Of a DNA stretch of 64,000 bases, positions 11,191 through 62,670 are shown one piece after another; position 1 is the stretch's first letter, and each line of letters starts with the position of its first letter. The notes beneath the pieces are model-generated. The model worked only from the letters and a program-made list of their open reading frames with translations, was not told where the DNA came from and did no database searches. The position numbers and the translations under genes were made by a program. Source of the DNA: Pollenia angustigena. Its lineage: Eukaryota; Arthropoda; Insecta; Diptera; Polleniidae. The stretch lies in NCBI GenBank assembly GCA_930367215.1, contig OV884059.1, positions 32,665,882 through 32,729,881 of the forward strand. Direction: 5' to 3'.

Positions 11191-11805
11191 TAATCTGTTT
11201 AGAGAGTCTTCAATACTTAAAAAATGAAGATTTGAAAGAAATTATTCCCTTGATAGGCCTTCGAGTGGAATTTAGAGAGAAGTTATTTGCGTGGAGGAAA
11301 AAAGAGGTGTTTATTAATAAGTTTATTTAATATTCTTTGCTTTATTTTAAAATTTTTTAGTTTGGTATTGATGATGACACTTTATCAGCTCCGTCAAAAG
11401 TGCGAGATTGGTTGTGTCATTCGCAAACCCAATCATCATCGAACAACTCGGGTGCAGCTGTAGTAAAAGTAAGTTTTTATCTTTGAATTATAAAAAAATG
11501 AAATAATTTCTGACTTTAATTATGGGATTTAAAAACTTTATTGATGGAGACGGCAAAGAACAAAGCCATTTTAAATTTGTACGAAAATGCAAATGCTCTT
11601 ACCAACGTGAACAGAACGGAACTTATTAATATAATCGTTGAGGACTCTCTATTTTGCAATATGTCACTATCTCCAAAGGGTTTTACAAATATTGTTGATG
11701 AGATATGTAAAGTGTTTCCCAACGAAAGAAAATATCATGTAAGTATTTGCGAATCAAACTAATAAATAGACAAGTAAAAGTGCTATATTCGGCTATCTGA
11801 CAGAT

Positions 11806-12615
11806 TTATTAGTTGCGTTCGAGAACACAAAAGTTTTTACTATTTTTTACTAAACTTTACTGCATTTTACGAAATTGCTTTCGAGTACACAAAATGCAGT
11901 AAATGAGAACATAAATTGAAAGCGAAAAGTGACAGTTCTTGTCTGAGTATTTACAAATTTTTACTGCAGACATTTTTGCAGTAAAATTTAGTAAATCAAA
12001 AAAACATATGTTTCAAAAGGTAAACAAACAAAAGTAACAAATAAAAAGCATACAAATTGTGGGAAAATTGTTAAATAAAAGAAAAGTTGAAATAAAAATT
12101 AAACCAAAACAAAAAGTGAATACATATTAATTAATTAAACTTGTTTGTGAAGCATTTATTTGGCTAAATACAAACTTTTGAAATTTTTTTTGTTATGTTA
12201 ATTTCTTAGAGTTGTAAAAGTGTGAAGTATTTGGGTACTTAAGTAATCAATAGCAAACAAATTATTCATGTTCTTTTAAATAATTTAGCCCGCTACAAAT
12301 TAGTAAAATCAAATAAAATAAAAAACAAACAAATATGAAAGATTACATAAAATAGTTTGTTTGTATTTTCAAAAAATGTTCGTGCTATAAAAAGTATTTA
12401 ATCGAGTACCGATAAGAAAACGAGTTAAGTAGTCAAAAGTGTCAATATTTTTTAAACACTTCAATTATTTGCCGTCAGCAGTTGCCTTTATTTTACGAAT
12501 TTTTACAAATTTTGCGTTCGCGTACTTTTTTGGACAACAGCTTTTTGTGAGAGCAAATTTTTGTGTTTACTCATTTACTGCTTTTTACTGTAAAAGTACG
12601 CAAACGCACCTATTG
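11806..12615. repeat. inverted-repeat element in CACTA 1
   Basis: The left side TAGTTGCGTTCGAGAACAC is mirrored at the right by TAGGTGCGTTTGCGTAC on the other strand. Motifs of the TTTTTACTGCA / GCAGTAAA kind recur through the interior in both orientations. The exact ends and target duplication are uncertain. It occupies an intron position of the accessory pseudogene. Confidence 0.5.
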
Positions 12616-14036
12616 TTAATGTTACTATTTTTAAATTTTTTTTAGGAATACTACTTTATAACACGTTAAAAACATGGTAAAAAAAATCCTTCTGGAAAAT
12701 ACGTAAATATGAGATTTAAAAGCAAAAAATTGAAAATACTGCAGAAAAAGAACCTATTTCACCTAGAAGTAGCGCAGCCGAATTTGATGAATCCACAGCT
12801 AAAGCCTTTAAGGACTTTCTTAACGTTGAAAAAGATACTTGGGATGCAATAATCGAGAAATGGGAAAAATGTTTTCTTTTGCGGCAAAGAGAGTTAAAGA
12901 GTTAAAATATATGTAGCTGAATTCTTAAAACCTTGCCCTAAATTCAAACATCCAAGGTTTCCAAATTTGGTAAGTATTATCTTATATATAAAAGATATAA
13001 AAGTATTTTCTAGTCCTCCAACAAACTTATGTATATGCAAATAATAATGGTAAAATATATGTTAGACCAAAATTACTTTAGTTAGTTTTTGAAAAGTATT
13101 CCAAAATATGTACATCCAATGATTTTTTGTAATTATTTTAGCACATAAAAAATAAGTTGTATTATTTTATAATATCAAATATATCTAATCAATTTTTGTA
13201 AATATGATAATATAATAATTATTTTTAGTTGTTTAAGCTAAAGGTCTTTTTATTTATAAAATATTATATCTATTTATTTCTATTGATATTTCGCTTACCT
13301 TTGGTTTGCATCGGCAGTAAGTTAAATTTACAAAATTTTAATATGAATAACACAAAAAAACCAAAACAAAATTTTGAAAATTTTTTTTCTTAATTTAAAT
13401 TCAAAAACCTTTTTGTCATAACACAATTACAAGAAGCCATAATAACATAAATAATATATGTATAATTAAAGTATTGGTTTTTTTGTGTTATTCATATTAA
13501 AATTTTGTAAATCTAATTTACTGACGATGCTAACCAAAGGCCAATAAATAAATATAATATTTTAAAAATAAAAAGACCTCAAGCTTAAACAATTAAAAAT
13601 AATTATAAATCAAATAAGATTAAATAACTTTTAAGTTGTATAAGTTGTACTAAGCTGTATATTTTTATACTCTAATAAACCTTAAAAATTTAATAATGAG
13701 TTAATTACATATTGCCTGGCGTAAAGGTAAGTATGAAGCAACGTACCTCCAAAATTAGGTACTTTTAATTTAAAATTACACATTTTTAATTTAAAAATAT
13801 TACATTCTTGATTTAAAAGGGCTATATTCTGGTTTTAAAAACTATAATTTTTAATACAAAAATGGTATATTTTCTTTTAAAATTGATTAAAATTTTTTTT
13901 TAAAAAATTGCAGTTATTAAGATAAAAACGAAAACTTTTAAAACAAAAAAAAAACCAGCTTGGCTCGATTTCACAGCTGTTTTATTTTAAAATAAGATTG
14001 TTTCTTTTTGATTTTAAAATTTTTTTTTTCTGTGTA

Positions 14037-14428
14037 CCAATTTCTTTACCATCACTTGTACAGATAATTCCACGATTCTCCTTAAAGTTAACTTGAAATT
14101 TATTACTCAATATTTTATTGACGGACATAAGATTCCCGTAAAATGACGGAATAAATAGTACATCAACCATTTCAATATTGAAAGTTTCTCCCTCATATTT
14201 AATTACTGAAATTCTACATTTACCTTTACCGCAACTTACAATACTTTGGCCATTCGCTACTGTTACTTCTTCACGAAAATTAAGATCCAGGGAAAAGAAA
14301 TTAGCACGATCTGAGCTTATATGGCATGTTGCACCAGAATCTAAAATCCATGATTTAGACCCATTACTTAAAGAAAAACAAAAATTATTTGCACTGCTAC
14401 TGGATGCTGCTATCTCATTACGGTTTTA
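14037..14428 (-). pseudogene. copia protease domain
   Basis: The minus-strand frame is open from the zinc knuckle side and reads SWILDSGATCHISSDR, which holds the aspartic-protease motif DSG. It continues through VANGQSIVSCGKGKC and VLFIPSFYGNLMSVNKIL, the typical protease tail of copia polyproteins. It ends abruptly at the border of CACTA element 1. No stop is present inside, so this part of the polyprotein is the best preserved. Confidence 0.85.
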
Positions 14429-15825
14429 GAATTAATAGATTTTTTTAACTTCCAACAATCACGCTTAATATGACCCTTTGCTTTGCAAAAATGGCACGTT
14501 TTCCCTTTAACCCCATCTTTTACATTAGAACTCTTCAGTGCTGAATGTGGTGGATTGTCTGAATTTCGTTGACACTCCTCTATTAAACAACTTTCAACCA
14601 CATTTCATTCTCGCTTCCAAAGGAGTAACAAGATTATCAAATGAAAATGGCAGACTGCTCAACAACATAGCCACTAACCAGCGCTCAGAGAATTTTTCAC
14701 CAACAGTCTCTAGTTTTTCAAACAGCATCTTCATAGTCATTATATGTTCCGAGATGTTTGTATCTTTACAGTACTTCATTCTGCAAATTTGTTTCATTAG
14801 CCGCACACTAGTTCCAAGTGTATCTTTTTCATGGTGATGCCATAAAAATTTCCCATGCCCCTCGGGCATTTTCAGCTTTCTTAATCAACATTAATTGATT
14901 GTCTTCAACGGATAATCCAATTTTTACTCTAGCTTCTTCATTTTTACGTTTCCACACAGCATCCGGTGCAACAGGAATATCATCAGTTACATGATTTCAT
15001 AAACCTTCTTTGCGAAAGACCAACTCCAGTTTAAATTTCCATAGATGGTAGTTGTCTGCATCCGAGAACGGCTTTGTGCAATTGCAAAAAAATCGCATTA
15101 AATGAACAGCAACAAATACACACACTTGCGGTCATACAATCAAAATTGCTCAACCGCAAATATTCGCTGCTGGTTTGCAGTCATTCAAATAATGCACATC
15201 GTGCTTTGTTATTTATACCATCGTTAGCTTCGTTTTTTAATAAAGATGTTTGTGTGTTTGGTGCGACAATGATTGTTTTGGTAAAGAAAAAAAAAATACA
15301 AACAAAAAAGCCAGAAATCAAGCAATCATTACTCATGGATTCATTCAGCAGTTGCTATGTAGTACAAGAAAAAAAAATTGAAATGAAACTAAACGCACAT
15401 AAATATGTAGGTACAAACTATTTCCATAAAAACAGACTTTTTTTCATCTTAAAAAGTACATCTTAAAAAGTACAGTAGTAGGTACAATGTATTCTTGTTA
15501 TTGTTGTTAGTTTTAACAAAGCGTCTCATCGAGTGGTTTATTGTTGTTATCGAGTGGACAATGACTACTTGAATGCAAAAGTATAAGAATGTGTTCCTTT
15601 TGAATTTACACAGTTGTGTTATATTGCGTGCACTTTCAATAAAAAACGAATACATGCAAAAATCAAATGTGTACGAAACGATGTAAAAATTACCAACGTT
15701 GAACTTTGTTTTGCAAGCAAAGAGTGAATGTAAATTTGAGCGTATGAATAAATCAAGAAAAATAGTGATTTTGCAGTTCTCTGGTCTGCATTAAGCTTAG
15801 CGAAAGAAGTCTTCAAAAAATCCAT
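14410..15825 (-). pseudogene. copia gag, broken
   Basis: Reading begins with an ATG at about 15825 (MDFLKTSFAKLNADQRTAKS), close downstream of the primer-binding site. It is then interrupted by about 700 bases of non-gag sequence. It resumes near 15090 with NYHLWKFKLELVFRKEG and VWKRKNEEARVKIGLS, then GTSVRLMKQICRMK and MTMKMLFEKLE (UBN2-type gag), and finally the zinc knuckle CHFCKAKGHIKRDC (CX2CX4HX4C). There are in-frame stops after KEG and after FMASP. Confidence 0.85.
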
Positions 15826-51483: not shown

Positions 51484-51974
51484 ATACCACATTGTATTTA
51501 GAATTCATTTGTGTAATAATATAAAAAAAATTAAACAAAAAGAGACTTGCAGTTAAAACTTGACATATCGTCAGCTCAGAATTGGTTTGGCGCATATGCC
51601 AAAAAGTCGGAGTGGAGAAAAACGACAGAGGATTTACATGAAGATTTCTCAAAATGTACCCCATAAAATTTTTTTATATTTTTACCACTGCTTCAGGTAT
51701 GTATATGTTTTGAAAGTTAGAATTTAATAGTATATAATGAAAAATATTGTCTCGTGCTGCTTACGCCACTTTTGCTTTTTGTGCTGCATACGTACGGATA
51801 TTTTTTACGGATATTTATTTATTTATTTGTATGTTCAAATCCTGTACAACAAGAGTTAATCTTATAATTAGAGTACAGGAAAGTATTATCGATAAGTTAA
51901 ATTAAATTAAGACGGCAAATGCAAGTATACATATTTAGACATAATTAACTAAAAATTGTTAAAGAATATAATAA
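51484..51974. other. unassigned DNA
   Basis: No gene recognised. The right end (51963-51974) is the left copy of the 12-bp duplication AGAATATAATAA flanking the next feature. Confidence 0.5.
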
Positions 51975-52436
51975 GAATGAAAGATTATCAATAACAATTT
52001 TAATTGATTTTCATGTTGTAAAATTCCTTTCTTCATAAAAATAATTTATTAAAAATTAAATTTCATGAACTTAAGCCTAATTAAAAATATTAAAAATTTG
52101 GATTGAAAACCATAAATAGTTCAACAAAATAACCACAATACTAATTATTGTTAAAGCTAAGGCACGAGCTCTATATGTACATTTGTCCTTCAAGTTGTGC
52201 TGAAAAAGGTCAACAGAAAAGAGAAAGACAAAGTGGAAAAAAACAAAAAAATTTACTTGGACTTCAAGAAAAATTCTTGACGAAAGTACGAAAAAACAGA
52301 AGTAAAGGAAAAAACATGTAAAATCAATTAAAATGGATAATCATTCAGGAAAGCAAATTTCGATCTACCAAATGTTAAAATACAATTTGGTTTAAGGATT
52401 GATATTTGACTAGTGACGTCAGCAGTCGTCGATGGC

Positions 52437-52536
52437 TGCGAGTGTAAGACGGCAAATCCATCTGAGGAGATCGAGTGGTTGCGATCGAAACATGTCATGG
52501 TAACCTGCCGGCCAGGGTTCGAGCCCGAGCCACGTC
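52437..52536 (+). other. tRNA-like polymerase III promoter region, unit 1
   Basis: GATCGAGTGGTTGCGATCG (near 52470) resembles the A box of Ser/Leu-type tRNAs. GGGTTCGAGCCC (near 52515) is a good B box about 46 bases downstream. It does not fold as a full tRNA by inspection. Identical sequence recurs 564 bases later. Confidence 0.55.
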
Positions 52537-53000
52537 AAGAATGAAAGATTATCAATAACAATTTTAATTGATTTTCATGTTGTAAAATTCCTTTCTTCAT
52601 AAAAATAATTTATTAAAAATTAAATTTCATGAACTTAAGCCTAATTAAAAATATTAAAAATTTGGATTGAAAACCATAAATAGTTCAACAAAATAACCAC
52701 AATACTAATTATTGTTAAAGCTAAGGCACGAGCTCTATATGTACATTTGTCCTTCAAGTTGTGCTGAAAAAGGTCAACAGAAAAGAGAAAGACAAAGTGG
52801 AAAAAAACAAAAAAATGTACTTGGACTTTAAGAAAAATTCTTGACGAAAGTACGAAAAAACAGAAGTAAAGGAAAAAACATGTAAAATCAATTAAAATGG
52901 ATAATCATTCAGGAAAGCAAATTTCGATCTACCAAATGTTAAAATACAATTTGGTTTAAGGATTGATATTTGACTAGTGACGTCAGCAGTCGTCGATGGC

Positions 53001-53100
53001 TGCGAGTGTAAGACGGCAAATCCATCTGAGGAGATCGAGTGGTTGCGATCGAAACATGTCATGGTAACCTGCCGGCCAGGGTTCGAGCCCGAGCCACGTC
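53001..53100 (+). other. tRNA-like polymerase III promoter region, unit 2
   Basis: Same A-box-like and B-box sequences as unit 1, near 53034 and 53079. Confidence 0.55.
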
Positions 53101-53339
53101 AAGAATGAAAGATTATCAATAACAATTTTAATTGATTTTCATGTTGTAAAATTCCTTTCTTCATAAAAATAATTTAATAAAAATTAAATTTCATGAACTT
53201 AAGCCTAATTAAAAATATTAAAAATTTGGATTGAAAACCATAAATAGTTCAACAAAATAACCACAATACTAATTAGAATATAATAATATTTGTGATTTTC
53301 TAATGTGTAAAATGTTTATATAAATAAGACTTAAAGCTA

Positions 53340-53734
53340 GTTGCGTTGCTATTAAGTTGTTGTGTACGAGGAAGATTGTTCCAGAGACGCGCCGAATGTA
53401 TGAAAAACTGCCATTCGGATACAAGAGAACGGTGGAATGGAATTATGATCTTTTTCCCCTAACTGATCTGGCATACCTAATCTTATCAATGAGATATTGT
53501 GGCGTATCCGAATAAATGATTTTATGCAGAAATAAAAGCACACGTATGTTAAGAAGGTTGTTAAACGAGACTCCATATAGTTTCGAAGAAAAGTGGGATA
53601 CATGATCATATCTTCTCAGTCCATATACATATCTAATAACATTGTTGTATAAGACATTAAGCTTACCCTTGCTTATTGAGTCACAGCTGGCAAAATTGGA
53701 ATAATGTAAGATTTTGCAAGAAGTAGTCTTATAT
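53340..53734 (-). pseudogene. CR1/Jockey-group reverse transcriptase, C-terminal part
   Basis: Reading the minus strand: LLLAKSYIIPIL, then in a shifted frame SCDSISKGKLNVLYNNVIRY, VYGLRRYDHVSHF and LLNIRVLLFLHKIIYS, to a stop near 53352. This is the conserved C-terminal domain after the polymerase of CR1/Jockey-group elements. The preceding codons lie at 54508-54583, beyond the hAT-type insertion. Confidence 0.85.
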
Positions 53735-54507: not shown

Positions 54508-54583
54508 TTAATGGAGTATAATGCTGTGAGGCCCAAAGACATCTTAGCTTTGTGTACGTCTGCCCCACAAGTGCGTTAATATG
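54508..54583 (-). pseudogene. reverse transcriptase middle segment
   Basis: Minus-strand codons read INALVGQTYTKLRCLWASQH then YTPLNIR. They continue directly from TWNNH at 62671 once the CACTA element and one TG are removed, and they lead into LLLAKSY at 53726. Confidence 0.88.
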
Positions 54584-54699
54584 CACAGAAAAAATAACGT
54601 AGTAAAAAACTGAACAAACGTTCAGTTTTTCTGAACATTTATTAGGTTTTTTGCACCTTGAACGCCCGTAGTAAAAAACCAAATAAAACGTTCAGTTTT

Positions 54700-55055
54700 A
54701 CATTGAATGTGAGTTCAGTTTTTTACTATTCAGAGTTCAGCCTCTGCAAAATTGAACGTTCGTTCAGTTTTTTACTATTCAGAGTTCAGTCTCTGCAAAA
54801 TTGAACGTTCGTTCCGTTTTTTACTATTCAGAGTTCAGTCTCTGCAAAATTAAACGTTCGTTCCGTTTTTTACTATTCAGAGTTCAGTCTCTGCAAAATT
54901 AAACGTTCGTTCAGTTTTTAACTATTCTGAGTTCAGCCTCTGCAAAATTGAACGTTCGTTCAGTTTTTTTACTATTCAGAGTTCAGTCTATTAAAAATTA
55001 AACGTTCGTTCAGTTTTTTACTATTCAGGGTTCAGTCTCTGCAAAATGTCATTCA
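54700..55055. repeat. subterminal tandem repeats of CACTA 2 (~49 bp)
   Basis: AACGTTCGTT recurs at 54755, 54804, 54853, 54902, 54951 and 55001, with TACTATTCAGAGTTCAGTCT between. A 49-50-bp period in about seven copies. Such arrays are the transposase-binding zones of CACTA elements in plants; that role is inferred here. Confidence 0.9.
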
Positions 55056-56248
55056 GTTTTTACAATACTGAACAAGAGTTTAGTTTTTTATACGATGCGT
55101 TCAATTTTGCTCAGGATATTTTTCCAGCTACAATTAGAAAATTAAATAAAAGATTTTCGAATTATTTTTAAATTGAAGTATATTTATTTGATTTTGGAAT
55201 TATTAAATATGTACATACAAATTTAAATTTTATAGTTGTTGGTAGCGTATATACATTTTGCCATTATTTGCATATGTTATATTCATAGGCTTTGAATTAA
55301 AATTGTCAATATCAATAATATAAAATAAATTATCATCAATATTTAACACTTCATAAGAATTAAAATGTTCGCTGAACTCAACAACTTTGATCTTACTACA
55401 AACAACGAGAAGTTTCGAATTATTTTTTATACAAAAGTTAAATTTAAAAATTTTAATTTCGTTGATTTTCTTTACACCTAAGAAAATATTTTTTTTAAAA
55501 GATATATTTTTATAAGTTATGCAATCAGTTGCTAATACATTTTTAAAATCAATACCATACTGGTTATTTACGAATTTGTTTGCGCTTATATCTTTTAATA
55601 TAAAAGAAGAGGTACTATAAAGTTCTGGAAATCCATATTTGTACTTTATAAGCAAATTTGAAAATTTAAATGAACATTTCTTAGCAATTGTCTTTTCTAT
55701 GTTTTTCCGTGATGTAATACTATGTGCATAAATTTTCATCTCTTTATGCTTAGATTCAAAACGCATAGCCCACATATATTTCAAAGGTCCGGTTTTCAGA
55801 ATAGCTCTTTTATAGTGAGTCATAAAATGGTGTTTTGGTTTTAATTTATCAAATAAGTGTAAATATAATGCATGATGTTCAGTTATAAGTTGATTCAACT
55901 TTTCAAGATTTTCTTCATTAAACTCGCTTTCCATTATCAGGTCTATTATTTTCGACAATAGTAGTACAAGACCCCAATGTTTGTTTTCTAAAGGTATTAA
56001 ATCTCCGATCATGAGTGGAAGAAAACTTACAAAGCATAACATTTCACTTGCAGTCATTTTGAAATGTCCATTTTTGATATTGTTGATTGTTATATCAGGA
56101 GATCTATTGGCTATTTGAAATTCGCCATAAGGAAAAAGACGTTTTCTTCTGTTTAAAGAACGCAAACTTAAAATCCTTTCATCAATTAAAGCCAACAAAA
56201 CACGAGAAAGATCATAATGACACACTCCTTCAAATATATCGGCCTTAA

Positions 56249-56448
56249 GGCCCGTTTTCACAACTTACCGATAGCTGAAGGTAGGATTTTATCGGCCGTA
56301 TACAAATTACAACTTTACTTTAATCTAACAGGTAGGATTTACCTTTATTTTGTTTTATCGCACACTTATAAAGTTTTAATAATGTTACACTTTTTATAAG
56401 GCCGGTTAATGTCTAATTTTAGCTATCGGTAAGTTGTGAAAACGGGCC
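56249..56448. mobile_element. MITE, 200 bp, TAA duplication
   Basis: Inverted ends GGCCCGTTTTCACAACTTAC, continuing CGATAGCT, perfect at both sides. TAA flanks (56246-56248, 56449-56451). A 3-bp TAA/TTA target suggests the PIF/Harbinger group. It lies at the edge of a transposase exon. A one-ended copy is at 27356. Confidence 0.9.
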
Positions 56449-56527
56449 TAAATACAACAACTGGAACTTAAAAGCGCTCGTATTATTTCTGCTCTGCGTT
56501 GTATAAAATAACATTCTTATGTACAAT

Positions 56528-58006
56528 CAGTGATGTTAGATGTTTTTTTCGAATTATCGTCAAAATTTAAAAAAAAAAATCGTCATAATCGTCATTAGTT
56601 CTGAAAAAAACCGTCAAAAAATCGTAATATAAAACATCGTTTTTTTTATCAACACGGACTAACTACTCTATTAAAACATAAAAAAATAACTAAGTATAAA
56701 ATTATACAAAACCAAAACATATAGAATTTTTAATACTTAAGACGATTTAGTGGGGCTTTGATATTGCTCTCCGGAGATTTTCGTCCAACGCGTGCCTGTA
56801 ATCGTCGTCTTTGTGGAAGAATGTGCAGAAGTTGCAATTGACCACAAACATGAGAGTCGCGTTGCAGAACGACCCATCGGCTGCTAAATTCTCGGGACAA
56901 CTGCTGGAGCTTGGCAACGGCCAAATTTCTGTTGAGGTTTCGAATGGATTGATATCGTTCCCTGAATAATTGTTGTGAATTCACATCGTCCAAGGAGGAA
57001 CTCATCAGCAAAGTGTTCCATGGCATTGCATAAAATTACAAAAATCTCGATTGGATTCGTGAACGGGCGATACTAGCAGCGAAGAATAAGGACGTCGATA
57101 GCTTAAACTAAATTATTCAAAGTCAAATCGCAGGACAACTGCATACGTACAAATCTGTTAACTGCGTGACCGACGAAAATGAACCGACCAGCTACCCGTC
57201 GAACTTTTTTAACTCGCTTGATGTACCAGGAACTCCGCCGCATAATTTAAAGCTGAAAATGGTATCGATCATAATCATGTTGCAGAATCTCAATCCTCCA
57301 AAAATGTGCAACGGTACGCGGTTGTCCGTGAAAAAGCTAATGAACAATGTGATTCAGGCGACAATAATCAAGGGCAAATTCAAAGGAGAGGAAGACCTTA
57401 TCCCACGAATTCCCATTATTCCAATTGACCTTCCATTCCAATTCAAGCGGATTTAGTTCCCCATTCGATTGACGTTTGCAATGACAGTCAATAAATCGCA
57501 AAGCCAATCACTAGAAGTCTGTGAGATTAATCTCGAATTTCCCCGTTTTCCGCACGGTCAGCTGTACGTTGCATGCTCGCGTGTTGGGAAACCGTCTTCG
57601 TTATTTGTTTTTGCGCCGGAAAACAAATCGAAAACATTGTTCATCAAATCGCTCTCTACTGATTCCATTCAAATAAATCACATTGAAAATTTAAATATTT
57701 GTGTTGTATTATTACTCTAAAGTTTGTCTGAAGGCTTAAAATTGGGACGAGGCGAAGTTCGTCGGGTCCGCTAGTATGAATATACATTCACCTCTACATA
57801 CATATACAAACTAAGAAAACATTTTAATTGCCAGATTGAAGTGTTATAAAATTGATGTCAGATTAAAGTTTAAAATAAATTTATTGACGGGATGAAATCG
57901 TCAAAACCTAAGTGACTCTACATTAAAAATCGTCAATCGTCATTTTGGTAAAATCATCGAAAAAAATCGTCAAAATGACGTAAAATCGTCACATCTGACA
58001 TCCCTG
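56528..58006. mobile_element. hAT-type MITE containing a Helitron fragment
   Basis: Ends CAGTGATGTTAGATG and, inverted, CAGGGATGTCAGATG, with the 8-bp duplication TGTACAAT (56520-56527, 58007-58014). ATCGTCAAAA-like motifs mark both subterminal zones. A Helitron remnant occupies roughly 56740-57774. Confidence 0.9.
56740..57774 (+). pseudogene. Helitron helicase, C-terminal fragment, with 3' terminus
   Basis: The sequence preserves, in changing frames, LLSGDFRP, CEFTSSKEELISKVFHGIA, WIRERAILAAKNKDVDSLN, VTDENEPTSYPSNFFNSLDV and PGTPPHNLKLKM. It continues NPPKMCNGTRLSVKKLMNNV and FAMTVNKSQSQSLEVC, with HGQLYVACSRVG near the end. These are the Pif1-like helicase motifs of Helitron Rep-helicases (FPIRL..AMT.NKSQGQ; HGQLYVA.SRV). 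The element ends with the hairpin GGCGAAGTTCGTC and CTAG at 57774, followed by T. The replication initiator domain and first helicase motifs are missing. Several stops are present. Confidence 0.85.
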
Positions 58007-58139
58007 TGTACAATATACAATTTTTGGCTGAAAACTGTCATACGTAGCATGTTTATGTCTTTTTGCTGTTATTTTCCCCTGTTTTCTCCAACTTTCCTTG
58101 TGGTTTTTTGTATCAGGGACCGTAACAATTATTACATTT

Positions 58140-58210
58140 ATCATAAACATATACATATGTATCCATATATATTTATATATATATATGTATATATATATAT
58201 ATTTTTCTGA
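58140..58210. repeat. TA microsatellite
   Basis: TATATGTATATATATATATA tract and flanking TATCCATATATATTTATATA inside CACTA 2. Confidence 0.8.
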
Positions 58211-60075
58211 TATTTATTTTTTGGCAGAAATAATTGTTATAAACTAATTATTTTTTTTTTTCAATATTAATTTTTATTTTTTTAGTTGAAATAATTGTTA
58301 TTTTCTAAATTTGTATTTTTTTGGCAGATATTTGTTATCAAGATTTAATTTTCTTTTGCAGAAATAATAGTTTATTACTGATATTTTTTTCGTATTAACA
58401 CTCAAATTAAATTTTGACATCAAATGCAGGATCTGTTTTCAGTCAAAAGTTTAAAGGGAAAGTATGTAATCTAAAAATAAAAAAAAACCAATTGCTTCTA
58501 AAAAAAACCAGGGCCCAAATCGTCGCACACGTGTTCAGTTTTTACACCGGTGGATATATCATTTTTCAATACATCTGACGTGTAATTTGTAATCGTTCGA
58601 AAATTGGCTTCATAAGTTGCTACATGTGTTTGGGGTTTTTTTTTCTCTACAATATCTGCAGAATCTCACTGAATTAAAAGATTGTGTGAGCCCTAAAACT
58701 GTGTTTAGAGCCAAGTTATCCCCTATTATTAACCCCAAAATAAAACGAACTCTTTTAGAACATATAGTAATTCCATTTTCCAACCTTTTCAAAACTTCTA
58801 TTAGTTCCTTGAAACATATTTCAGGACCGTAAACTTTTAAGTGGTTACTAGAGCAAAATGCAGCTGGAAATATAAAATCTAGTTTTGATTGTAAAAATTG
58901 TGGAAGAGTTGGAAAATTATAATAGCAAGCGCAGATTGAATAAGTGTGGGTCCCTAATGCATTATTAATTTGAAAATCATCAAAATACATGTTGTAAACC
59001 ATGATAATTTCCGATTCATTTAATTACTTCTGCATGACTTCTCCATTAATGAGATTAGAGATAGATTTATTTTCTCTTAGGACTTTATAGTTATCTTCCG
59101 CAGTGCTTAAAACATTTGGCAATTCAAAAAACTTTTTCATTTGAAATTCTAAAGGCATAATTTGCAGACACTTCGTTTTTGGACCTAACGTAGGATTGCC
59201 CATTGAAACGGTTTCATCAATTTCATTGCTTATAATAACAGCATCAGATGCTTCAAACAAATCTAAACTTCTTAAAGTTTTTATGAATTTAAATTCAGTT
59301 GTGTAGTTTTCAAATGGAACTTGCAATACATTTTTTATATCTTCTGTTAAAACATTCGATCTTTGCAAATGATCAAAAGTAGACTGCCAAATATTTTGAA
59401 ATTTATTTAAAACATATTGGGAATCTTTCCGAGAAATAGAATTTTTCGAGTACAAACTTGTAGTGAAATCTAATATATCACATTCTAAATTTTGCACTAA
59501 AATCTTATTGTTATCTCTAATATCATTACTCAAGAAGTCACTTAAGTTTTGATTTGTATCCAAACAATGCATCTCAGTCGAGATTTGTTTTGCATTAATT
59601 GCTTGTGAAATTTCATTGTCACGATTTATTGTTTTAATATAATTTGTTTTATGTTGTATCAAATGGCGTTTTAAAGAAGAAAATCTAGAGAAAGTTGCGT
59701 CACAATTGCGTACACTGCAACTTTTTGAATCAGCGTTTCTTAAAAGATGAACGAATTTGAGATGATGTAGATATTCATCAACATCTTCAAAAAACTTTTT
59801 GCACTTAACGCAATTAAACATTTTTGACTACAAAGGAAAAAAGTTCAAGACTAATACTTAAATAAAATTATAAAATTTTTAATTGTGTTTATTAAAAAAA
59901 TGAATTCATTGAATCAAGAATTTTTTTTAAAAATTAATTGAAAACCAAAACAGCAAACTATTTCACATTTTTTTAATAAAAGCGTTTATTTAAACATCTA
60001 AATAACATTTTTATTGCATTAATAAAAAATGTTATCAATTTAATGAAATTTTAAAAAGTTTAGGTACTAAAAACT

Positions 60076-61860
60076 TTAATCTGTGAAATCTTTTTTCTGT
60101 GTGGAACTTTTGAGCATAATATTTAAGAAAGAACTCAAAGAAGCTGAATGAATATCCTGCGGAGTATCAATTTTATAGAAATACTTTTGTACAAATGACC
60201 AAACTTTGGTACAAGGATCTGGATATTTTAAGTTCAGTACAAAGAAAAGCTTAAAGGCGCAATCGAAGGCTTCCAAAAACGACGAAAATTTTAAAAATGT
60301 TTTATCAAAATAAGTGTAAAAACTTTGAGCTGTTTGCATACCTTCAACAATAACAAACGGTTGCAAAGTATTTTCCAAAGCTCTGCATTTTTCCCGTAAT
60401 TGCTCTATTCTAACTTCAATGTTGTTTATGTTATTGACCGTAAGGATAAAAAATTTTTGAGCATCCAAAATGGTGTACGTCTTTCCTCCAAAACCAATAG
60501 GTATCAGAATAGCATTCAGCAAATTTAACAAGGTACTGTCTTGAAAATCTGAAAATTCAAAAGTTTTACTTGCGTTCGGAAATTAATACCATGACACAAA
60601 CTACCTTTGTTGCTAGATTCTAAGGCAATTGTAAGCAGCTCTCTACAATTTTGATTAAACTGTTTGGCTGAATAGTATTTAACGATATCTTCTTTGAAAT
60701 TTGGCCACTTTTCAAAAAATATGTTTTTCTTTCCCGGAAAAGCGATCTCAAAATCGATATTTATCTAAAAAATATATGTAAAGTATTTTTTTAATGCACA
60801 TACTTAAAAATTTTCAATTATCATTGTATTTCCGTAATACATGAAAACTCACCAAATCAATTGCTCTCGAATCTTTTATAACCGGCCATTCCTTTAAGAA
60901 CGAAATATTGTCGAGACTTTTAATGTCTTCTCTTCTTAACAAATATGTCCGCGACCAACGATCGCACACAGTTTCCCAGCTTTGCAAAGGCCACAGTAAA
61001 TCTTGTTTTAAACGTTTAATGTCGTCTTCAATTATTTCCACTGATGTTTCTTCTAAACACTGGGTTTCTACTTTCCTATGTTTCGCTTTATAATTATGGT
61101 ATCGGTGAAACAGTTTGCCGCCTGGAGCTTTTTTCCCACTTCGAGGGTAGTAATAATAATCCTAAATCAATAAAAAAAAGTATTATTAAAGTATATTTTA
61201 ATTTTTGTTAAACAACCACTTACGGAAACTGGTACTTCTCCAGGAAATTCTTTGCAAATTTCGTCGACAACTACTTTAAAATCCGATGGTGCTAATTTTT
61301 TTTCATTGACGAAGGCGTTTTCCAATATAATATTGATCAGTTTGTCTCTATATTGACTAGTCAACAATTCATTTGAAGTGTAAAATTGTTTAATGTTCAT
61401 GCCGGCCTCAGTTGACGATAACAACTCACTTAGTGACTGAAAAGACAAAACATAAATAAAGGAACAAAAATTATATAATGACTTACTCACCTTATCAAAA
61501 AAAACTTTTTATTTTTATTTTCCACCTCTTTTTGACGCTATAAGAAAAAATACTTTAATATTAAACAATAACATAAATAGTTAATATATATACTCACTGT
61601 ATTGCCTCTCCACTTAAAAAGTTTTTCTCGAAATTCTGCTCTCGGCCCAATTTTTTTAATTGCATCAGCTACGTCCCTTTCATTCAAGTATTGAAGATGC
61701 CTATATTCAATGCCAGCTTCTGTAATAAACGCATATTAGAGTTAAATTATATTTATAATAAATCAAATCAACTGTAATTATTAATTAATAACTTACCTTT
61801 CAACTCCGGCAGCAGAAACTCAAGATTAAATGTCTCTAATAAAACTTCCATAATAACCAT
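60076..61860 (-). CDS. SAM-domain accessory protein of CACTA 2 (SAMD3-like), 446 residues
   Basis: Exons predicted at 61797-61860, 61598-61719, 61224-61436, 60853-61161, 60605-60764 and 60076-60548 all have GT-AG borders, compatible phases and no stop, giving 446 codons. The alternative start at 61851 removes three residues. Residues about 5-60 look like a SAM domain (LETFNLEFLLPELK, YLNERDVADAIKKIG, EFREKLFKW). The next block is KLINIILENAFVNEKKLAPS and VVVDEICKEFPGE, then SWETVCDRWSRTYLLRREDI and FEKWPNFKEDIVKYYS. The C-terminus has AFDCAFKLFFVLNLKYPDPC and VWSFVQKYFYKI. I recall many arthropod and fish proteins of this kind labelled SAMD3-like. It lies inside the transposon, divergent from nothing and upstream of the transposase on the same strand. 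A role in transposition or in RNA/protein assembly is unknown. Confidence 0.75.
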
Positions 61861-62259
61861 TCACATCAAAGGCAAACACAAAAATGACATTCTATCAAGA
61901 CACTTGTTGTTTTTTTTTTTAAGGTACTAAGAATTACCTAATGAACATTTTTTTAAAGCAATGGAAACTTAAATGTTTAACAATGTAGTTTTAGTCTTAT
62001 TTCTCTGTTTTTCATTGTTGAACTATATACATAATATTAAAATATTAAAAGTAAAAGAAATATGAACATATGTATGTGTAAACATATTAACTTGCCCCTT
62101 GTTAATCTAAAGAATTATGTTAAATTGTTTCAAATACATAGCTTATATTTTGTAGGCATACTTCGCGAATGTTTGTTGGGCTAACGTTAGAATACCGTTA
62201 ATTTTGCAGCATGCTAGTAAAATAATATTAAAGTTTTTAAAAAATGTACCAAAAATTTA

Positions 62260-62668
62260 TTTACTACGTATCGTTTAGTTTTTTTAAACGCCGCGTTCAG
62301 TTGTGTTTAGTTTTTTTTACCATTGCACTTTCCTGAATGTAACGTTTTGTAGTATCCAAGAAAGATTTTACTGAATTTTGCGTTCAGTTTTTCTAAACCT
62401 GCGTTCAGTAAAGAATTCATTATTTGATTGAAAAAAGCTGAACAAAACGTTTAGTTTCTTAGTAGAAAACTTTATTTTTTACAATGTTCCGTTCAGTCAA
62501 ACGATAGCTTGGACTATTGCACGCTGAACGTAGCGTAGTAAATAACAAAATATGCGTTCGGAGATTAGATTTTTGAATGCAATTTTAAAGAAACGTAGTA
62601 AATATCACAATAGCGTTCATTTCGACTTTTTCTGAATGTTGCGTTCAGCTAAATTAATTTTTTCTGTG
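62260..62668. repeat. right subterminal zone of CACTA 2
   Basis: Loose repeats of CGTTCAGTTTTTCT, AACGTAGTAAATA and GCGTTCAG in both orientations, similar to the motifs of the left array but not regularly spaced. Confidence 0.7.
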
Positions 62669-62670
62669 TG

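Follow-up and report, generated by a model that had tools for sequence, protein, structure and literature searches.

A SAM-fold protein gene as the probable second gene of a CACTA/EnSpm-type transposon family in the fly Pollenia angustigena

Transposons of the CACTA/EnSpm superfamily generate short target-site duplications of 2-3 bp, and the animal members are less well understood than those of plants. Here we describe an element of this type, carrying a gene for a protein with a predicted SAM fold (the SAM gene), in a 64,000-nt stretch of the Pollenia angustigena genome (GCA_930367215.1, contig OV884059.1, positions 32,665,882 to 32,729,881, forward strand; hereafter the window). In maize Spm, as summarised in PMC1636069, the gene order is TNPD followed by TNPA, and the Pollenia element resembles Spm with its TnpA and TnpD in having CAC...GTG termini, a short target-site duplication, subterminal repeats, spliced genes and a second protein next to the transposase. 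In contrast, the SAM-fold protein is encoded by the second gene of the window element, ahead of a C2H2 transposase, and TnpA of Spm follows the transposase frame. The likeness of the SAM protein to TnpA concerns a possible role, with no homology claimed. PMC1636069 also describes SmTRC1, a CACTA element of the animal Schistosoma mansoni that has spliced products, PrA and PrB, in addition to its Transposase_21 open reading frame (ORF); for both products the authors report no detectable similarity to other sequences. A word search of the text of PMC1636069 did not find "sterile alpha", and a literature search, with Repbase entries and subscription papers outside its scope, returned no paper on a SAM protein in CACTA elements. 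The best overall explanation, to which we assign a probability of about 0.7, is a family of cut-and-paste transposons of the CACTA/EnSpm type with the SAM gene as its second gene, the product of which is a partner or regulator of the transposase. It is almost certain that the gene is an accessory gene of transposons and was selected at the family level.

The SAM gene comprises six exons on the minus strand, which together give 446 codons and a stop and are separated by five GT...AG introns of 56-161 nt. The exon boundaries below rest on the gene model and, where indicated, on comparison with L048 and L049, two copies of a sister subfamily in the same genome.

61797..61860, minus strand: exon 1, with the probable ATG at 61851 (gene model, comparison with the start in L049)
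61598..61719, minus strand: exon 2, which jointly with exon 1 encodes the predicted SAM-fold region (gene model, splice-site comparison)
61224..61436, minus strand: exon 3 (gene model, splice-site comparison)
60853..61161, minus strand: exon 4 (gene model, splice-site comparison)
60605..60764, minus strand: exon 5 (gene model, splice-site comparison)
60076..60548, minus strand: exon 6, encoding the conserved C-terminal alpha/beta domain and the stop (gene model, conservation, structure model)

This open six-exon structure of 446 codons, first put forward in the first-pass annotation of the window, was confirmed: all 10 splice-site dinucleotides are kept in L048 and L049, the introns of which differ at 37% of the aligned sites. 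In L051, a copy about 42% identical over most of the protein, the exon order matches that of the window gene by eye. Because L049 has an ATG only at codon 4 (61851), the gene probably starts there, giving 443 codons. A candidate 47-nt exon between exons 2 and 3 (61537-61491) was rejected, as its inclusion destroys the reading frame. The predicted gene model goes beyond chance, judged by its match to a Eupeodes corollae protein over 97% of the length.

That protein, LOC129949246 (35% identity, 97% coverage, E 2.4e-74), was found by searching public proteins with the window protein, together with Cochliomyia hominivorax ACRADG_009264 (35% identity, 94% coverage, E 7.0e-70) and a distant, unnamed third relative (23% identity, 91% coverage), the alignment of which does not include the SAM region. 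Both named fly proteins share the SAM region and the C-terminal domain with the window protein and differ from it in their longer N-terminus and linker. Neither the window protein nor homologues P0001-P0003 matched a Pfam SAM profile at E <= 1. In the structure model of the Eupeodes homologue, a five-helix SAM fold is present at the N-terminus, supporting the SAM-like region proposed earlier. The C-terminal alpha/beta domain encoded by exon 6 was modelled with a predicted local distance difference test score (pLDDT) of 77.5 and a predicted template modelling score (pTM) of 0.70. Residues 300-400 of the Cochliomyia homologue (P0002) match PF15992 (DUF4769, E 1.2e-7), a family without known function that may overlap the domain following the SAM region.

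The element that contains this gene has the following outline, given with its terminal inverted repeats (TIRs) and target-site duplications (TSDs).

54584..62668, minus strand: complete CAC...GTG DNA transposon of 8,085 bp (5,793 bp minus an internal 2,292-nt insert), defined by its TIRs and by the frame restored on joining the flanks
54584..54595, plus strand: TIR CACAGAAAAAAT, 12 bp, at the 3' element end in gene orientation (terminal repeat match)
62657..62668, minus strand: TIR CACAGAAAAAAT, 12 bp, at the 5' element end in gene orientation (terminal repeat match)
54582..54583, unstranded: TSD TG (CA on the gene strand), left copy (flank joining)
62669..62670, unstranded: TSD TG, right copy (flank joining)
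54600..55105, unstranded: 3' subterminal repeats with TGAACG/CTGAAC motifs, including a tandem array of 49-nt units at 54653-55068
62250..62650, unstranded: 5' subterminal region, also with TGAACG/CTGAAC motifs

The insertion target was the reverse-transcriptase frame of a retrotransposon, and joining the flanks with one 2-bp TSD restores this frame across the junction; the 8,085-bp element is therefore complete at its ends. The 12-bp TIRs, the TSD and the restored frame bear out the earlier placement of an accessory gene within a CAC...GTG element, in which the SAM gene and the transposase both occupy the minus strand. Five other copies, L045-L049, are complete elements as well, with termini as in the window element and CACAGAAAAAA ends; their 2-bp TSD is TA in all five, compared to CA (gene strand) in the window copy. 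In L045, a sister without the insert, 7 and 11 TGAACG motifs lie in the terminal 750 nt, compared to a single one in the 4,355-nt middle. This end enrichment is weaker in L048 and L049 (4 and 3 versus 1), and a count in the ends and middle of L056 found no TGAACG. The 3' element end of L051 (520-850, minus strand) carries another tandem subterminal array with 50-nt spacing and closes with ...CTCTGTG followed by TA; from this array, the subterminal end repeats appear to be family-specific.

Searching the 1.37-Gb genome with the 446-aa SAM protein identified at least 129 matches in at least 72 clusters, the window's own among them, with 95 of 670 candidates scored, so that the cluster counts are a lower bound. 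Because relatives occur in at least 72 clusters, the SAM gene is a mobile repeat and not a host gene. We examined 14 further copies (L045-L058), picked from the higher-scoring matches plus two weaker classes, and found a same-strand transposase downstream in 13 of them (L045-L049, L050-L053, L055 and L056-L058), recognised as fragments only in L052 and L053. Together with the five complete elements, this answers positively, for this genome, the question raised in the first-pass annotation, whether homologues sit within CAC...GTG elements. In the remaining copy, L054 (C3:160405500-160411500), two exons of the SAM-family gene are long and open, and no transposase was found in the next 3.6 kb or so downstream; L054 may be a solo or domesticated gene, or else an element that has undergone deletion. 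Among the matches listed, 24 of 72 SAM clusters are followed within 4 kb by a transposase and 24 of 53 transposase clusters are preceded by a SAM match; among SAM-transposase pairs with centres within 8 kb of each other, none is arranged differently. Of the 29 unlinked transposase loci, five were inspected for upstream sequence: L063 has a SAM gene there, and none was detected in about 3.5 kb upstream of the same-superfamily transposases L059-L062. With four of these five loci yielding none, the SAM gene is frequent in these elements, not universal. Other long ORFs are present in the 3.5 kb or so upstream of the transposase in L060 and L062. Long open transposase frames, measured from stop to stop, reach 785 aa in L049, 790 aa in L051 and 810 aa in L056. 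In L048 (2975-3017) and L049 (2836-2878) the SAM frame overlaps the transposase start by 43 nt in another frame, which suggests a single transcript that is alternatively processed or translated.

A single capture of a host gene by the window element would agree with the closest named relatives (Eupeodes, Cochliomyia) being annotated as ordinary proteins, which are known from protein records alone. However, the SAM gene also lies ahead of transposases in families with only about 30% identity to the window gene, a second, decayed element in the window bears a SAM gene too, and splice sites are common to both subfamilies, and we consider a single capture highly improbable. An old capture of the SAM gene at the root of the lineage may have taken place.

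In protein, the C-terminal exon of L048 and L049 is 73-74% identical to the window gene. Compared with L048 and with L049, the window copy of the SAM gene has a ratio of nonsynonymous to synonymous substitution rates (dN/dS) of 0.085 in each case (dN 0.18-0.19; upper bootstrap bound 0.13-0.14), with a saturated dS of about 2.1-2.2. For the transposase the ratio is 0.22 (L049 against L045-L047; dN 0.20-0.21) at a dS of 0.91-0.93, so that dS is unequal for the two genes of one element pair; even using the transposase dS, the SAM ratio would be about 0.2. From this low ratio between subfamilies we infer that the gene was maintained during subfamily divergence and selected as a part of the element. 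More recent pairs give mixed ratios: in L056/L058, two SAM exons have 0.43 and 0.52 and the transposase 0.48; in L048/L049, SAM has 0.40 and the transposase 2.9 (1 synonymous change against 12 nonsynonymous ones); and in L051/L050, exon 6 has 0.86 and exon 4 has 0 synonymous and 3 nonsynonymous changes. These values are compatible with constraint in active lineages and decay afterwards. Selection on the SAM gene, as suspected earlier, is supported at the level of the family, with the reservation of a saturated dS, but not as selective retention of the gene in the window copy, whose transposase and history are considered below.

The transposase, a protein of ~800 aa with two N-terminal C2H2 fingers, lies in pieces downstream of the SAM gene on the same strand.

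58637..59821, minus strand: transposase N-terminal part, with two C2H2 fingers and the first two acidic residues of the presumed D/D/E
59024-59026, minus strand: in-frame stop within the N-terminal part
58513..58644, minus strand: transposase continued in another frame after a frameshift (about 58640); the tblastn match ends at 58513
56242..58533, unstranded: insert private to the window copy (not in L045), 2,292 nt replacing 62 nt of the sister
57457-57720, plus strand: Helitron-like helicase fragment inside the 2,292-nt insert, named by eye
55230..56241, minus strand: transposase C-terminal part, 68% identical to residues 464-799 of P0005

The sequence common to the window transposase and L045 ends at 58534. 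Against the stop and two insertions initially attributed to this gene, we count one stop, one frameshift and one insert, the latter taken as a single composite. We found 23 transposase homologues, mostly on unnamed contigs, the named ones belonging to Scaptodrosophila, Photinus and Eretmocerus. Across 15 aligned transposases D294 and D381 are invariant and E625 is nearly so; judged by position, these residues are the presumed catalytic D/D/E. In Pfam searches with 15 homologues, P0011 matched DUF4218 (PF13960, E 0.0019) and P0026 matched Transposase_21 (PF02992, E 0.096) followed by DUF4218 (E 0.16), all under the curated cut-offs, and neither the window transposase pieces nor most of the 15 homologues matched either profile. 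The sub-threshold matches point to the plant CACTA transposases.

The copy most similar to the window element, L045, lies on another chromosome with unrelated flanks and differs at 3 of 5,794 aligned bases, in line with the recent activity proposed before. Both copies share the transposase stop and frameshift, which are missing from L046 and L047, so that at least one of the two last jumped after both lesions had arisen. A recent move was thus made by an element whose transposase was broken, presumably in trans through the enzyme of another element, and the window copy is very likely such a recent trans-mobilised insertion. Moreover, all three lesions fall in the transposase and none in the SAM gene, an outcome with a probability of 0.18-0.26 by length alone, so that the open SAM frame needs no special explanation; it looks intact mainly from the recent jump. 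Codon changes in the SAM gene relative to the window copy (synonymous to nonsynonymous) number 0 to 1 in L045, 1 to 8 in L046 and 1 to 21 in L047, and these recent changes within the subfamily look unconstrained. In addition, L046 has a one-base deletion in SAM exon 3 and a transposase with one stop, L047 has lost the SAM start, and L048 and L049 carry one exonic SAM frameshift each.

An open SAM frame beside a broken transposase is also what one would see if the window gene had been recruited by the host or were kept by selection independent of transposition. Yet the near-identical L045 shares two of the lesions at another locus, all three lesions would miss the SAM gene with a probability of 0.18-0.26 by length alone, the changes in L046 and L047 are mostly nonsynonymous, and at least 72 clusters mark a mobile repeat, leaving this explanation with next to no likelihood. 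The idea that selection kept the gene open while its partner decayed consequently fails for the window copy, and nothing was found in support of host use.

Judging from the gene order, the common orientation and the conservation, the SAM protein probably acts for the element. It would be made from a spliced transcript and act together with the transposase, with the SAM domain providing self- or partner-association and with the repeats at the element ends recognised either by the conserved C-terminal domain or by the zinc fingers of the transposase. The window copy or its sister L045 would have jumped, mobilised in trans, when its transposase already carried the stop and the frameshift. We put the odds that the protein takes part in the transposition complex as a positive partner at somewhat less than even. 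SAM domains often work by association, and a protein of this kind could also poison or limit the transposase, with copies combining a broken transposase and an open SAM gene, such as the window copy and L045, serving as dampers. We regard such a mainly negative or self-regulatory role as somewhat unlikely, since this same pair was itself mobilised recently and L046, with its broken SAM gene and one-stop transposase, indicates loss in either partner. A role against host silencing or in targeting, outside the transposition complex, would suit an optional helper, as seen in the four of five sampled transposase loci without an upstream SAM gene; however, no domain or motif suggests silencing and the consistent gene order equally suits any helper, making this role distinctly improbable. 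Returning to the SAM protein as a partner or regulator of the transposase, a bolder version, which we think unlikely, would make it the standard ancient second component of one animal CACTA lineage: through its SAM domain the protein would polymerise at or close to the subterminal repeats, thereby assembling or licensing the transposition complex, and elements keeping SAM and losing the transposase would remain mobilisable, as the window copy and its sister were.

As a conserved second gene in several families of a single insect genome, with a recognisable fold for protein association, the SAM gene offers a concrete handle on the assembly or control of transposition. The findings further suggest that a class of uncharacterised fly proteins is encoded by transposons and not by genes of the host, and they call for caution, as an open frame in such a copy can reflect mere recent transposition.

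The second SAM-bearing element in the window is the following.

11193..13078, plus strand: decayed remnant of a related element, with SAM exons 2-5 followed by the last transposase codons

Its SAM pieces are 60%, 41% and 26% identical to the window gene, and for the piece of the transposase C-terminus, shuffled sequence scored as well against four transposases in 0-2 of 2000 trials; by these comparisons, the remnant appears to be a second, internally deleted element of another family. Beside the interrupted retrotransposon end, 51973-53400 holds three tandem copies at 564-nt spacing, two of which have 99% and 68% identity to the first over a stretch of 300 nt. Finally, copia-type gag/protease-like fragments (CCHC knuckle, DSGAT motif) at 13982-14884 on the minus strand and a long imperfect fold-back at 13230-13560, resembling a miniature inverted-repeat transposable element, were noted by eye.
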